From Vulcanimicrobiota bacterium (lineage in GTDB: Bacteria > Vulcanimicrobiota > Xenobia > Xenobiales > JADMJV01): 64,000 nt of DNA. The stretch's first letter is position 1, and the number at the start of each line of letters is the position of its first letter. The notes beneath the pieces are model-generated. The model saw only the letters and a list, made by a program, of their open reading frames with translations, ran no database searches and was not told where the DNA came from. The stretch spans positions 248,001 through 312,000 of the forward strand of contig JAHBVR010000010.1 of the NCBI GenBank assembly GCA_019637395.1, in the 5' to 3' direction. This document shows, one piece after another, positions 48,516 to 55,745 of this stretch. Made by a program: the position numbers and the translations under genes.

Positions 48516-48713
48516 CAAGCACGCCTGTAAATTCCGCAGGTTTCTTAGGATTCTGGTCTTTATGCGGGTAGCCCGCGATTCGCTCTCTACCGGATTGGCG
48601 TGGGCGACAGTCGATAGAAACACGCCCCTGGTGGCGGCCCAGAGCATGTTATGGCCAGTCAGACGCAGCGTGGACAGGAGGAAGATTGGCCCATCCTCAA
48701 CAAAGGTTGTTGC

Positions 48714-51155
48714 ATGCCGGAAAGGGAGTGGTCCACCAAACAACTGGCGGAACTGGTCGGTCTGTCGCGCGCAACCATTCTCAAAGACGTGGCCAAGGGG
48801 CATCTGCGAGCCCACCATGAGGGCCGCAGACTGCTGGTAAAGGAACGCGACTTCAGGGAGTGGCTGAACTGGCGTTCCAGTCAGTTGCCTCAGGCGAATT
48901 TGCGCGGAGAGCGGCTGACCCTGCTCGAGGGGGCCGAGCGTTGCGGATTAGGGCATCATGTCCTGCTGGGGGCGATCGAGCGGGGGCTGTTACCGGCCAG
49001 CAAAAGGCTCGACGGTGGGCCGGCCCGTTGGGTGATTGGAGCGGACGATCTGGCCGATTTTGTGCGCAGCCGGAATCAGGATGTGCATTGGACCGCCAGG
49101 CGCATCGCCCAGGTCACCGGATTGTCTGAAACGAGTGTGAATCGCGCCCTGGCCGACGGTCAGTTAAGCTTTGAGTTACGGACGCACCCCCGGCATGGCC
49201 CGCAACGGGTGGTTTCAGAGGAGCGATTGGTGGCCTGGCTGGAGCAGTCGGCACCGCCCTACTGCAAGCAGGCGGCTCACCTCCCCCACCTGCTCTGGCC
49301 GGAGGAAGCCGCCCAACGGTTCGGGCCGGAGTTGGCGGAAGTGAAGGAGCACCTGGAGACCGGGCTGTTGGCCGGAGTGGCTGGCCGGGTGACCCGCTAC
49401 GGATTGGACGAATGGCTGCGCGCCCAGGGGCTCTCTCCTTCCTGGCAGTTGGACGAGGACAGCCAATGGATCAGCGTCGGCCGGGCCGCCGAATTGACCG
49501 GCACTCCCATCGTCACTCTTCAGGCCTGGGTGGCCCGAGGCTTGATCCCGCGGCAGCGCCGGGGGCGGCGCTGGCTGCTGGAACGAAAAAGCTTATTGGA
49601 CCAATACGACCGCTACCACCGCAGGGGTTACGAGCATTATTTAACGCCGGGACAGGCGGCCCGCCGCCATGGTGTGCCGGTGACGCGGTTGCTCGAGGCT
49701 ATGAAAGAGGGACACCTGCCTTTTCACCTGCTGGGCCAGAAAAATGGCTACTGGGGCCGCTATCTGGAGCCGGGCGAGCTGCAAGAGTGGTTGGCCCGGC
49801 CCTTTCAGCGCAAGAGCAGCAAGCGCCGGCCGGCCGAATCGTTGCCCCTGGATTGCCCGGCCTTTCTGACCCAGACCCAGGCCGGGCGGGCCACCAACCT
49901 GGGCGCTAAAGCCGTGGCGCGGGCGCTGGCTCAGGGAAAGCTGGAGGCGATCGCCGGTCCCGATGGTTCGCCACGGGTAAAACGCGAATCCCTGGCAGCC
50001 TGGTTGGCTCAGGTAAGGGTGGAGGCGGGCGAAAGCGAGGAGCCGGACCAGCTATCTCTGCGCCGGGCTGCTCAGGAGTGCGCCTACAGCGAGGAGGAGT
50101 TGCGCCGCTATGTAAACACCGGCCAGCTGCCGACCGAGCGAAACTCGCGGGGACGCCTGGTCCTGCGGCGGCGCGTCTGGCAAAAGTGGCTGAAGAGCCG
50201 CCGCCACGCCAGTCAGCTTGACCCGGAGCAGCGTTACTGGAGCCTCGAGGAGATCGCGGAAAAAACCGGGATGCTGCGCGACTCGGTGGGGGCGGCCATC
50301 CGTCGCAAACAGTTGAAGGCCCAGTTGGTGCAGGTACCGGATTCGGCGCGCCCGGCCTACCGGGTGGCCGATCGGCACCTCAAGTCCTGGCTCAAGAAAC
50401 GCGACCGAGGTCTGCCGGCGGTGCAGCCGCGGGGAGAAGTGCTGACTCTGGAGCGGGCGGTGGAGCACTCCGGAATGACGCGCGAACAGCTCTATTATGC
50501 CGTGCGCCATGGCGAGCTGCCGGCCGCCAAGGAGCACTACCGTGGCGCCAAGCGCTGGCTCTTCGGAACAATCGATCTGGACGACTGGGTGCGCCGGCGC
50601 TCCCAGCCCAAAGACTGGACCTGCCGCTCCCTGGCCGAGTTTGCGGGCGTTTCCTACGCCGCCGTGCTGGCCGCCGAAGACCGGGGTGAGCTGAAGTTAG
50701 ATGACTCGGGTGTGCTGGACTGGCTGATACACCGGTCTCCTCCCTATCGGCCGGAAGTGGCCCACCTGGAGAACTGTGTCAGCTTCAAGGCGGCGCTCAA
50801 ACTGAGCCGTGTGCTCAGACCCGTGCTGGTCAAGGCGCTCCAGTCCGGTGAACTGGGCGCCCTGGTGGAGCAGAATCAGGGCAGTCCACGCTACTACATA
50901 CCGCGGTTTCAACTGGATAGCTGGCTGGAGAGCCGTGGCCTGGCTCCGTCGTGGCAGCTCGCCGCCGAAACCGAGTGGCTGCGCGTGGCCGATGCCGCCA
51001 CCTTGACGGGCTATGCCCGGCCCACCATCCAGCTCTGGATTCGCCAGGGTAAAGTGGTGAGCCGCCGACGCGGCCGGCGCTGGCTGGTGGAGCGCCAGAG
51101 CCTGCTGGCTCAGGCAGAGGCCACCTCCCCCAGGACGGACAGGAATCAAGCCTAG
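48714..51155 (+). CDS. Tandem array of 13 excisionase/MerR-like DNA-binding modules
   Basis: An 813-residue protein built almost entirely of about thirteen 45-57-residue modules, each with a T-x-x-x-A-A-x-x-x-G-x-x-x-x-x-V helix-turn-helix, a (R/A)G-x-L-P turn, a short wing and a (D/E)-x-L-x-x-W-L end. Examples are WSTKQLAELVGLSRATI, HWTARRIAQVTGLSETSV, ISVGRAAELTGTPIVTL, LTPGQAARRHGVPVTRLL, WSLEEIAEKTGMLRDSV and LRVADAATLTGYARPTI. Approximate residues: 6-53, 67-121, 125-179, 190-239, 251-301, 309-364, 383-434, 445-496, 507-563, 575-630, 634-676, 685-742, 754-801. Start 48714 follows AAAGG at seven bases; an ATG at 48651 is in frame but has no ribosome site. Excisionase and MerR proteins normally carry one such module. 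No other domain is seen. It is divergent from the ArsR-type gene. Confidence 0.85.
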   Translation: MPEREWSTKQLAELVGLSRATILKDVAKGHLRAHHEGRRLLVKERDFREWLNWRSSQLPQANLRGERLTLLEGAERCGLGHHVLLGAIERGLLPASKRLDGGPARWVIGADDLADFVRSRNQDVHWTARRIAQVTGLSETSVNRALADGQLSFELRTHPRHGPQRVVSEERLVAWLEQSAPPYCKQAAHLPHLLWPEEAAQRFGPELAEVKEHLETGLLAGVAGRVTRYGLDEWLRAQGLSPSWQLDEDSQWISVGRAAELTGTPIVTLQAWVARGLIPRQRRGRRWLLERKSLLDQYDRYHRRGYEHYLTPGQAARRHGVPVTRLLEAMKEGHLPFHLLGQKNGYWGRYLEPGELQEWLARPFQRKSSKRRPAESLPLDCPAFLTQTQAGRATNLGAKAVARALAQGKLEAIAGPDGSPRVKRESLAAWLAQVRVEAGESEEPDQLSLRRAAQECAYSEEELRRYVNTGQLPTERNSRGRLVLRRRVWQKWLKSRRHASQLDPEQRYWSLEEIAEKTGMLRDSVGAAIRRKQLKAQLVQVPDSARPAYRVADRHLKSWLKKRDRGLPAVQPRGEVLTLERAVEHSGMTREQLYYAVRHGELPAAKEHYRGAKRWLFGTIDLDDWVRRRSQPKDWTCRSLAEFAGVSYAAVLAAEDRGELKLDDSGVLDWLIHRSPPYRPEVAHLENCVSFKAALKLSRVLRPVLVKALQSGELGALVEQNQGSPRYYIPRFQLDSWLESRGLAPSWQLAAETEWLRVADAATLTGYARPTIQLWIRQGKVVSRRRGRRWLVERQSLLAQAEATSPRTDRNQA
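48912..51116 (+). repeat. Duplicated four-module block inside the DNA-binding array
   Basis: Modules 2-5 (48912-49616) and 10-13 (50436-51116) correspond one to one, including linkers: APPYCKQAAHL against SPPYRPEVAHL, GLSPSWQLDEDSQW against GLAPSWQLAAETEW, and RRGRRWLLERKSLL against RRGRRWLVERQSLL. The 235- and 227-residue blocks therefore arose by duplication of a four-module unit. Modules 6-9 between them may be a third, more diverged copy (13 = 1 + 3x4), which is inference. Confidence 0.75.
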
Positions 51156-51766: not shown

Positions 51767-51824
51767 ACTCCCAAAGGAGCGCTCCCAATCCAAGAAGAAG
51801 GCCTGGCCTTCCTGGGAGGGCAAA

Positions 51825-52892
51825 TTGTTCAAACATTTTTTAATAGCCGTGACATTTTTGATTCCGCTGGCCTGGGCCCAACAAGCCGACGAATTAGAGG
51901 ACCGTCTGAAACTGGAGATCGTCAACGTCCAGGTCGGGCCAGAACTGGTGAAGCCCCTGGTCAGTGGCGAATCAGCTCCTCTGCTCAAGGAAATGGGCGA
52001 TGTTCGCAAACAAATTGAAGAGGAGCGGGGCTTCGTTCTGCCAGGGGTTCGATTTCACGATAACCTCAGCTTGAAGCCCAAGGAATGGGTGATCTACCTT
52101 CGCGGCCAGGAGGTGGCGCGCGGTCAGGTAGAGCCGAAGTTGCTGCTGGCGGCGGCCCGGAATCCGGCTTCCCTGCGAGGCTTACCCGGCCTGCCTCGAG
52201 AAGAAAAAATCGCCGGACGAACCGCCAAATGGATTGCGCCGGCCGGACGGGCCAGAGCGGAAAAAGCCGGGTGCATCGTCTTGACCCCCGAACTCTATAT
52301 CGGTTGGTATCTGAAGAATGCTGTGATTTCGCATGCCTGGCAGGTTTTCGGCCGTCAGGAGATGCTGGTGCTGATGCCCGAGTTGTTGGCCAGCACCTTT
52401 AACACTGACCTGGCCGCCCAGGACCGCTGTTTGGAGGTTTGCGAGAATTTGCTTCGGGAGCGCCTGCCCCTGCGAGTCAAATCGGTAGCCGAGTTGGTGC
52501 TGGACAAGTCCCAGCCGCGTCAGGACGCCGATAGTCTGACCGAGGTGGCGCGCGGCAGTATCAAAACCTGGATTTGTGAAGAAGCAGCCCTGCCCGACAC
52601 CAAGACGATTCCAGCGGTTGTTTTAAGCCCGGCCTGGGAAGCGAAATTGCGGGCGGCGGTCCACTTCGGACCTGATGGACTGGTTATTCGCGACGCCTTC
52701 AATCTAGAACAAGAGCTGGAGAAGCCATTGAGCGCTGCGCTGGCCAAACAGCCGGACGCAGTTCTGTGCGTGCCCGACGATCTGCGGCTGGCGGTGCGCC
52801 GTTTGAGCGAGCGTCAATTCTCTGATTTCAGCGTGCTGGCTCAATCCGAAATCGCTGCCGGCTATTCCGCCAAGAAAGTCCAGGAAATTTAG
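51825..52892 (+). CDS. Exported protein resembling the cytoplasmic domain of FlhA/SctV (first copy)
   Basis: A 355-residue protein. MFKHFLIAVTFLIPLAWAQQ is a Sec signal peptide with cleavage after AWA. The mature part follows the C-terminal (cytoplasmic ring) domain of FlhA/InvA/SctV export-gate proteins: EERGFVLPGVRFHDNLSLKP at residues 67-86, VIYLRGQEVARGQVEP just after, AEKAGCIVLTPELYIGWYLK at about 144-163, FGRQEMLVLMPELL, then NLLRERLPLRVKSVAELVLD and a terminal VLAQSEIAAGYSAKKVQEI. The eight-helix membrane part and FHIPEP motif of true FlhA are absent. GGGAGGG sits five bases before the TTG start. It is followed one base after its stop by a second protein of the same design. An exported location for this fold is unexpected; role unknown. 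Confidence 0.85.
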   Translation: MFKHFLIAVTFLIPLAWAQQADELEDRLKLEIVNVQVGPELVKPLVSGESAPLLKEMGDVRKQIEEERGFVLPGVRFHDNLSLKPKEWVIYLRGQEVARGQVEPKLLLAAARNPASLRGLPGLPREEKIAGRTAKWIAPAGRARAEKAGCIVLTPELYIGWYLKNAVISHAWQVFGRQEMLVLMPELLASTFNTDLAAQDRCLEVCENLLRERLPLRVKSVAELVLDKSQPRQDADSLTEVARGSIKTWICEEAALPDTKTIPAVVLSPAWEAKLRAAVHFGPDGLVIRDAFNLEQELEKPLSAALAKQPDAVLCVPDDLRLAVRRLSERQFSDFSVLAQSEIAAGYSAKKVQEI

Positions 52893-52893
52893 C

Positions 52894-53973
52894 ATGTTCA
52901 AAATTTGCTTATTTTTGCTGCTCTGGCTGAGCCTCCCGGCGCTGGCTGAACGTCCTGAAGTGGAAAAGCTGGTAAATAACCAGAGCTTCGAGACGCGTTT
53001 AGGCAGCGCCCTCAGCCCTCTCACCGAGCAAGGTTTTTCTCCCAAACTGGCCTCCATTCGACGCCATGTAGCCGGCGAACTCGGCTGGGTCGTGCCGGGG
53101 ACCCTGTTCACTCCGGCTGCTTCTCTGCCCCCTAATGAATATCAGATTCTATTCCGGGGTCAGGTGGTGGGCCAGGGCAAGGTGGAACCAGGGCAGTTGC
53201 TGGCCATCGGACCCGAGTCGAAGCTCATCCAGCTCAGCGGAGTTCTCATCCAGGATCCGACTTACGGTATGCCGGGCAAATGGGTGCCTCAGGCCGATAA
53301 GGCAAAAGCCGAAAAGCTCGGTTGCCTGGTCTTTGATCCGGTTTCGGTGTGGGCCACTCACTTGACGGAACTGATCAGAGCTCACGCTGCTGAATATTAT
53401 AGTAGCGATGACCTCACGGCGGCCCTGGCCATCTTGCAGCCGGAGCAGCCGGCCCTGGTCCATCGGTTCCACAGCGATCCGGCAACTTTTCAACGGCTGT
53501 TGGCGGTCGTGCGCAATCTATTAACGGAGCGAGTATGCGTGCGCGATTTGGGGACCATTGGCGAGGTGGTCATCCATTCGCCGCATCAGGATCCGGATCG
53601 CTTGAGTGAGGCCGCGCGTGTCAAGTTGGCCGGCCTGATCCTGGACGACCTGGCCAACGAAAAGAAGATTCAGGTGGTGCGGGTGGGAGCCAGGCTCGAG
53701 GCCGCCGTCGTCAAGCTGGGCAGTTATACCGCCCAGGGCCTGACGATATCCGAAAGCCCCGATATCAATGATCAGATCCTGCCAGCTATCAACACCGCGG
53801 TGGAAAGAATGACGGAGAAGGGGCTACAACCGGTATTGGTGACCACTGCGGCGGCGCGGCTGATTCTGCGCCGGGTGACGCTCAAGGAGTATCCGAATCT
53901 GGTGGTTTTGTCCCGCAACGAATTGACGCCGTATTATTCCGTCGAGTCAGCCGGAGTGATCGAACTCAAGTAG
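52894..53973 (+). CDS. Exported protein resembling the cytoplasmic domain of FlhA/SctV (second copy)
   Basis: A 359-residue paralog of the preceding protein with the better-preserved FlhA-C sequence. Signal peptide MFKICLFLLLWLSLPALA with cleavage after ALA. Then LASIRRHVAGELGWVVPG (about residues 52-69), SLPPNEYQILFRGQVVGQGK (78-97), YGMPGKWV, AEKLGCLVFDPVSVWATHLT (139-158) with the family-typical DPxxVxATHLTE, IRAHAAEYYSSDDL, VRNLLTERVCVRDLGTIGEV and a closing NELTPYYSVESAGVIELK. No membrane export-gate region. Tandem paralogs one base apart must be co-expressed and may form a mixed ring. No flagellar or type III genes occur in this window. Confidence 0.88.
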   Translation: MFKICLFLLLWLSLPALAERPEVEKLVNNQSFETRLGSALSPLTEQGFSPKLASIRRHVAGELGWVVPGTLFTPAASLPPNEYQILFRGQVVGQGKVEPGQLLAIGPESKLIQLSGVLIQDPTYGMPGKWVPQADKAKAEKLGCLVFDPVSVWATHLTELIRAHAAEYYSSDDLTAALAILQPEQPALVHRFHSDPATFQRLLAVVRNLLTERVCVRDLGTIGEVVIHSPHQDPDRLSEAARVKLAGLILDDLANEKKIQVVRVGARLEAAVVKLGSYTAQGLTISESPDINDQILPAINTAVERMTEKGLQPVLVTTAAARLILRRVTLKEYPNLVVLSRNELTPYYSVESAGVIELK

Positions 53974-54830: not shown

Positions 54831-54866
54831 TAAAGGGGCGGGCGAGGGTTGGGCTAAGGGGTGTTG

Positions 54867-55745
54867 ATGGTTGGACTGGCGGAAAGTTTGGAGTATTTGG
54901 ATTCCGAGGCGGCCGTGCGGAGTTTGCGGCGGGACGCTTACTGGCCGAAGTGGGATTCCCCCTGGTGGCACATGATGCTGCTCCACGAGATGGGCGAGAC
55001 GCGGCGAATCCCTCCGGCGGCTATCGAGGCTCTGGTGCTCGAGATGGAAAAGACGCCCAGCACCGAGTTCCTGGACGGCTCCGACTATCATTGCCACTGC
55101 GCTCTGGGTTGCGTTTATCAATTGCTGGCCGCTTACGGGATCGATGTGGATGGACGGCTGCCCTGGATTCGTCAGTGGTTTTTGCGCTACCAGATGTCCG
55201 ACGGAGGGTTCAACTGTGATGCCGAGGCCTACGCGGTGCCGGGCGAGTGCCCGAGCTCGATGGTGGGCACGATCGCACCGTTTGAGGCAATGCTTTTTTA
55301 CACGCCGCGGGATTTCACGGCCGAGGAGATCGAATTTATGGACCGGGGCGCGCGCTTTTTGCAGGAGCGCGAGCTGTGGCGGGGTTCTCCAACCCGGCAC
55401 AATGCTGAGGAGCGGGAGCAGGCAAAGGCCTGGATGGACCTGTGTTTTCCGCGTTTCTACTTTTACGATGTACTGCGTGGCTTGTATGCGCTGCTGAACT
55501 GGGCCGACCGGCGCGGGGTGACGCTGGAAAGAGCGCGTTTCGCGCCGGTGCTGGAACGGCTGGAGGCGGGCGTGGAAATTGGTCGGCGTGCCTACCTGGG
55601 GGTAGGCACGCGCTTGCCTGAAGGCGGGCGGGCCAAGGAGAGCCTGTTTCCCCTGCTGGAGGCGGTGAGCGGCAACGGTCCGTCTCGGTATCTCCAGGAG
55701 CAGTGGCAAAAGTGCCGGGAGCTTGGAGCCAAATGGTTCCGCTGA
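54867..55745 (+). CDS. Terpenoid cyclase/prenyltransferase-like (alpha6-alpha6 toroid) protein
   Basis: A 292-residue helical protein with repeat segments of the squalene-cyclase/prenyltransferase toroid: IRQWFLRYQMSDGGFNCDAE (a QW-motif-like QxxDGGFxC), EFLDGSDYHCHCALGCVYQL, FYFYDVLRGLYALLNWADRR and LLEAVSGNGPSRYLQEQW. It is about half the length of a full cyclase and lacks an obvious DxDD catalytic motif, so it may be a single-barrel enzyme or a binding protein; the Cys/His cluster could bind a metal. ATG at 54867 is preceded by AAGGG at six bases; a GTG at 54861 is in frame. No terpenoid genes are adjacent. Confidence 0.7.
   Translation: MVGLAESLEYLDSEAAVRSLRRDAYWPKWDSPWWHMMLLHEMGETRRIPPAAIEALVLEMEKTPSTEFLDGSDYHCHCALGCVYQLLAAYGIDVDGRLPWIRQWFLRYQMSDGGFNCDAEAYAVPGECPSSMVGTIAPFEAMLFYTPRDFTAEEIEFMDRGARFLQERELWRGSPTRHNAEEREQAKAWMDLCFPRFYFYDVLRGLYALLNWADRRGVTLERARFAPVLERLEAGVEIGRRAYLGVGTRLPEGGRAKESLFPLLEAVSGNGPSRYLQEQWQKCRELGAKWFR

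Follow-up and report, generated by a model that had tools for sequence, protein, structure and literature searches.

FlhA-C, the C-terminal domain of the flagellar export gate, is known as an intracellular docking ring that sets the order of protein export. At the locus described here, two copies of this domain each follow a predicted export signal in place of the membrane gate. The window (the whole stretch of 64,000 nucleotides analysed, from a Vulcanimicrobiota bacterium) contains two neighbouring genes, P1 and P2, on the plus strand. As the first-pass annotation of this DNA had it, the two genes are one base apart, with base 52893 alone between them (Table 1). A promoter and terminator scan gave a yield no higher than shuffles.

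Table 1. Features of the P1 and P2 genes in window coordinates
Feature	Position	Strand	Basis
Ribosome-binding-like GGGAGGG before P1, 4 bases upstream of the start	51814..51820	+	sequence
P1, exported (predicted) FlhA-C homologue, 355 aa, TTG start	51825..52892	+	FHIPEP, AlphaFold, Foldseek
P1 predicted Sec signal peptide, 18 aa, cleavage AWA^QQ	51825..51878	+	rule-based; in both orthologues
P1-specific cysteines C202 and C206	52428..52442	+	alignment
P2, exported (predicted) FlhA-C homologue, 359 aa, ATG start	52894..53973	+	FHIPEP, AlphaFold, Foldseek
P2 predicted Sec signal peptide, 18 aa, cleavage ALA^ER	52894..52947	+	rule-based; in both orthologues
P2 D121-Y124, equivalent to Salmonella FlhA D456-F459, dimple	53254..53265	+	alignment; PMC8166844
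P2 T155, equivalent to FlhA T490, dimple	53356..53358	+	alignment

FlhA-C identity and fold

The assignment of both proteins to the FlhA-C fold, made at first from the sequence alone, was borne out by profile searches and structure prediction. P1 matched Pfam FHIPEP with an E-value of 2.6e-46 (158.8 bits, profile positions 319-654 of 657) and P2 with an E-value of 7.2e-59 (200.4 bits, positions 322-654 of 657), both well above the cut-off of 29.1 bits. The matches were confined to the C-terminal half of the profile. FlhA was the best NCBIfam model for both; the scores (148 bits for P1 and 210 bits for P2) were far below the equivalog cut-off of 772, which applies to the full length, as expected because P1 and P2 are half a protein. 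The closest PDB structures by sequence were the FlhA-C domains of several bacteria and also SctV-C. A chance match to FlhA-C was ruled out by the FHIPEP E-values and these PDB matches. The FlhA-C motifs originally quoted for both genes were all present in P2; P1 is the more divergent member.

AlphaFold models, for which the input was the two window proteins and 72 FlhA-C sequences, had a mean pLDDT of 90.2 and a pTM of 0.85 for P1, and 91.3 and 0.86 for P2. Low confidence was limited to the signal peptide with the few residues that follow it and, in P1, to one short weaker stretch. The best Foldseek match of both models was the FlhA-C structure 6ch1, with an E-value of 8.5e-23 and a TM-score of 0.77 by query length for P1, and with an E-value of 3.9e-30 and a TM-score of up to 0.83 by query length for P2. 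FlhA-C and SctV-C accounted for all of the best 50 PDB matches listed for P1 and for P2. Because the alignments contained FlhA homologues, the predicted fold and the sequence match are not separate lines of evidence; the two do not conflict.

P1 and P2 share with FlhA-C its four-subdomain fold, a profile match over the whole C-terminal half, and their best structural matches. P2 also keeps the residues of the chaperone dimple and is approximately 40% identical to the C-domain of the full-length FlhAs of the phylum. In contrast, P1 and P2 lack the 8-helix membrane domain and FHIPEP loop of FlhA, and their own signal peptide is all that stands upstream of the match. They also differ from FlhA in lying outside any recognised flagellar cluster, in being extra to intact FlhA genes and, in the case of P1, in the loss of the dimple residues. 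The C-domain of the injectisome gate proteins SctV, InvA, and CdsV has the same fold, and Foldseek returned matches to CdsV, YscV, and SsaV; however, the sequence scores of P1 and P2 are lower to these proteins than to FlhA, and P1 and P2 are predicted to be exported.

Dimple residues, cysteines, and a putative two-subunit scaffold

In Salmonella FlhA-C, the chaperone dimple consists of D456, F459, and T490, and the ring is stabilised by the linker (PMC8166844). The P2 of every one of the three species that carry the pair has D, Y, and T at the equivalent sites. The three P1s have E, P, or D at the position of D456, A, S, or T at that of F459, and W, W, or R at that of T490, and the P1 of the window reads E-K-I-A where P2 has D121-Y124. 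C202 and C206 are invariant in the three P1 orthologues, whereas their FlhA counterparts are hydrophobic; none of the P2s, the 72 reference FlhAs, or the aligned paralogues has them. C150 and C251 of P1 are also invariant, which gives four invariant cysteines in total, and many other FlhA-C proteins of the lineage have these two as well. The pattern of dimple residues and cysteines would suit a pair with divided roles in an oxidising compartment, in which P2 may bind a ligand and P1 may play a supporting role.

With moderate confidence, we propose that P1 and P2 are a Sec-exported, two-subunit periplasmic adaptor or scaffold with P2 as the ligand-binding subunit and P1 as its partner. The two genes would be expressed jointly as a compact unit, and their products would take the Sec pathway to the periplasm or beyond. 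P2 would hold a helical ligand in the retained FlhA dimple, and P1, without a dimple and with two cysteines at normally hydrophobic positions, would be the structural partner of P2. This soluble adaptor or scaffold would be additional to the export gate, which the cell retains intact. We infer actual export and cleavage, the interaction between P1 and P2, ligand binding, and any ring; as to the ligand and the P1-P2 contact, we are guessing from residue retention and gene pairing.

In a stronger form of this proposal, the exported pair would form, outside the inner membrane, a homo- or hetero-ring like the FlhA nonamer or another ordered P1/P2 assembly, and the docking ring would have found a second use as a component of a periplasmic or surface machine. 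FlhA-C and SctV-C are known to assemble into nonameric rings (PMC8213127; PMC8223533). The pair retains nearly all of FlhA-C, including the helix preceding D1, directly after the signal peptide. However, in D3, the main ring-contact subdomain of FlhA-C, P1 and P2 keep 9-13 of the 18 most conserved FlhA positions versus 17 in the genome's own FlhAs, and cytosolic paralogues are similar to the pair in this respect. We regard an ordered assembly of this kind as a tentative and rather unlikely extension of the scaffold proposal.

N-terminal signals and the predicted side of the membrane

P1 begins with MFKHFLIAVTFLIPLAWA^QQ and P2 with MFKICLFLLLWLSLPALA^ER, where the caret marks the predicted cleavage. 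The orthologues in two further species, G001 and G004, begin with MLKHFLLAALLVSPAWA^QA, MFCRLLLALALLSLPVAA^ER, MLRLLMCLWLLLATTVARA^DQ, and MLKLCTFLLLSLTAPLVAGA^SP. The letters differ and the layout is alike: a short positive n-region, a hydrophobic core of 13-15 residues, with 14-15 in the two window proteins, and an AxA-type site (AWA, AWA, ARA, ALA, VAA, and AGA across the pair and its orthologues). Using a simple in-house n/h/c-region rule with a threshold of 35, we found this layout in all six proteins of the three species; five scored above the threshold, and the P1 of G001 reached 33.1. The same rule was positive for 34 of the 317 open reading frames of a comparison set (loci of the same and related genomes, first start). 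The clear Sec signal peptide first noticed on each gene is thus supported by a rule-based layout that is conserved in relatives.

The N-terminal charges of P1 and P2 predict an N-in/C-out orientation, which is opposite to that of the last FlhA helix, and would place the domain on the side opposite to the cytoplasmic one. The Omp85/BamA genes of the genome mark the organism as diderm, with a periplasm. A split or cut FlhA was ruled out by in-frame stops upstream and by the presence of a start site for each gene, and a leftover last FlhA helix by charge orientation, length, and cleavage sites. The caveat of the first-pass annotation, that the hydrophobic N-terminus might be the last helix of a complete FlhA, therefore falls away. 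Judged from sequence, the export of P1 and P2 is strongly predicted, and a normally intracellular domain seems to have moved outside the inner membrane, with export signals replacing the membrane gate.

The same segments may be read as uncleaved N-terminal anchors, which would hold both FlhA-C domains at the inner membrane on its periplasmic side. A hydrophobic core with K/R at the N-terminus would suit an anchor, and AlphaFold shows the N-terminal segment as a helix, with low confidence; however, cores of this length are short for a transmembrane helix, and AxA-type sites follow the core in nearly every orthologue. We consider anchoring unlikely. A cytosolic location, with the N-terminus as a relic FlhA helix or a weak tether and the pair as modulators or decoys of a flagellar-type secretion system, appears slightly less probable still. 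The genome has a secretion cluster of this type, many C-only paralogues look cytosolic and have no hydrophobic segment, and the chaperone dimple is retained in P2. Set against these points are the N-in/C-out charges, the short core with signal-peptidase sites, and a signal-peptide character that persists despite large sequence change.

Conservation of the pair within an FlhA-C expansion

The window genome (G000), G001, and G004, all of a single genus, retain the pair, each gene with its signal peptide; a survey of relatives, as first suggested, thus recovered the signal-peptide-plus-FlhA-C design in two congeneric species. A scan of 18 genomes of the class with P1 returned these three genomes with E-values of 1e-182 or better, and the next match (7e-59) was a full-length FlhA. 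The pair was not found in two other members of the genus, G003 and the incomplete G002 (one of the two is 82% complete), or in the remaining genomes of the 18 scanned. Its absence from two congeners and from the other class genomes scanned shows that it does not belong to the core of the secretion system. The flanking genes differ between species, indicating that the pair itself is the conserved unit; the exception is a 294-aa gene located close to the pair in both G000 and G001. Open reading frame reading in the three genomes, with Pfam searches on ten neighbours, recognised no flagellar or type III secretion genes near the pair, and no conserved partner genes adjoin P1 and P2.

P1 and P2 are 45-61% identical between the three species and form one fully supported clade each. 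Their sister grouping had a support of 91 in one tree and 31 in another, and a sister relationship is uncertain. dN was about 0.34-0.56 against a much larger, saturated dS, giving a dN/dS below 1. These values are signs of purifying selection on the pair; the fast evolution could also mean weak constraint. Although identity between G000 and G004 is 47-51% for the pair and 98% for FlhA1, it is very improbable that P1 and P2 are paralogues in decay or under neutral drift whose hydrophobic starts arose by chance, because frames are intact and the pair order is kept in three species, dN/dS is below 1, the fold is confident, and the cysteines and dimple residues are invariant.

The window genome has 19 FHIPEP matches, which include two FlhA that are intact and full-length, a degenerate copy of nearly full length (matched in two pieces), and C-domain-only paralogues. 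Ordinary FlhA is thus present in the same genome, and its retention in two intact copies makes P1 and P2 extra copies. The earlier suggestion that an FlhA domain had lost its export-gate part holds insofar as P1 and P2 have no membrane gate domain; however, it was not simply lost from the gate protein, since both intact FlhA persist and the pair is a small branch of a large expansion. The same expansion occurs across the phylum, with up to 17 FHIPEP matches per relative, and is apparently undescribed. As in the pair, FlhA-C is separate from a complete gate domain in the other paralogues of the phylum, which are many per genome. Unlike the pair, these have no signal peptide directly before FlhA-C, and most look cytosolic or membrane-anchored (multi-pass); among approximately 70 C-only paralogues of 12 genomes, taken from cut-out genome regions, P1 and P2 are the only ones with this arrangement. 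The literature searched, which covered few subscription papers, yielded no relevant description of an exported or stand-alone FlhA-C. If P1 and P2 are exported, an FlhA-C domain can be detached, cross a membrane, and take another job, and the paralogue expansion would show export-gate parts re-used as ordinary building blocks. With this pair, it could be examined directly whether FlhA-C folds, pairs, and assembles when the gate is missing.

The flagellar-type secretion cluster of the genome comprises FliH, FliI, FliK, FlgE/F/G-like proteins, FliM, FliN, FliP, FliQ, FliR, FlhB, and FlhA; a flagellar-type export and switch cluster is located at L084 (G000:C34:100001-120000). Flagellin had no match in the window genome, and it is absent from the complete 3.50-Mbp genome of Vulcanimicrobium alpinus (PMC9758169).

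Several paralogues of the window genome carry further segments. At L009:1468-2787 (G000:C36, minus strand), an FlhB C-terminal domain (PF01312 242-335, E-value of 4.2e-11) is fused to the C-terminal part of FlhA-C, which places two export-gate cytosolic domains in one protein; G001 has an 88%-identical copy. At L006:1-2547 (G000:C21), a FliG N-terminal domain (PF14842, E-value of 1.8e-9) and several membrane segments accompany FlhA-C, which follows the FliG domain. The loops of this protein resemble FliF by eye, and L220 (G020:C208) looks FliG-N-like by eye; Pfam searches gave no support in either case. FlhA-C also occurs behind a helix-turn-helix domain, and another FlhA-C piece behind a zinc-finger-like N-terminus (L011:1312-2517, G000:C5; L018:1159-1878, G000:C35). 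A third FlhA-like protein (L004/L016, G000:C1:314922-316295) has the gate domain and a shortened C-domain, in which much of D1-D2 is missing.

Around the pair, window positions 48651-51155 encode an 834-aa protein of several helix-turn-helix (HTH_17/MerR) repeats. The 294-aa protein lies at 54861-55745 and has no Pfam match; a second copy of its gene, interrupted by stops, is present in G000:C5. In G004, a SecA gene (L070:15223-18711) is located approximately 5 kb from the pair, possibly by chance.
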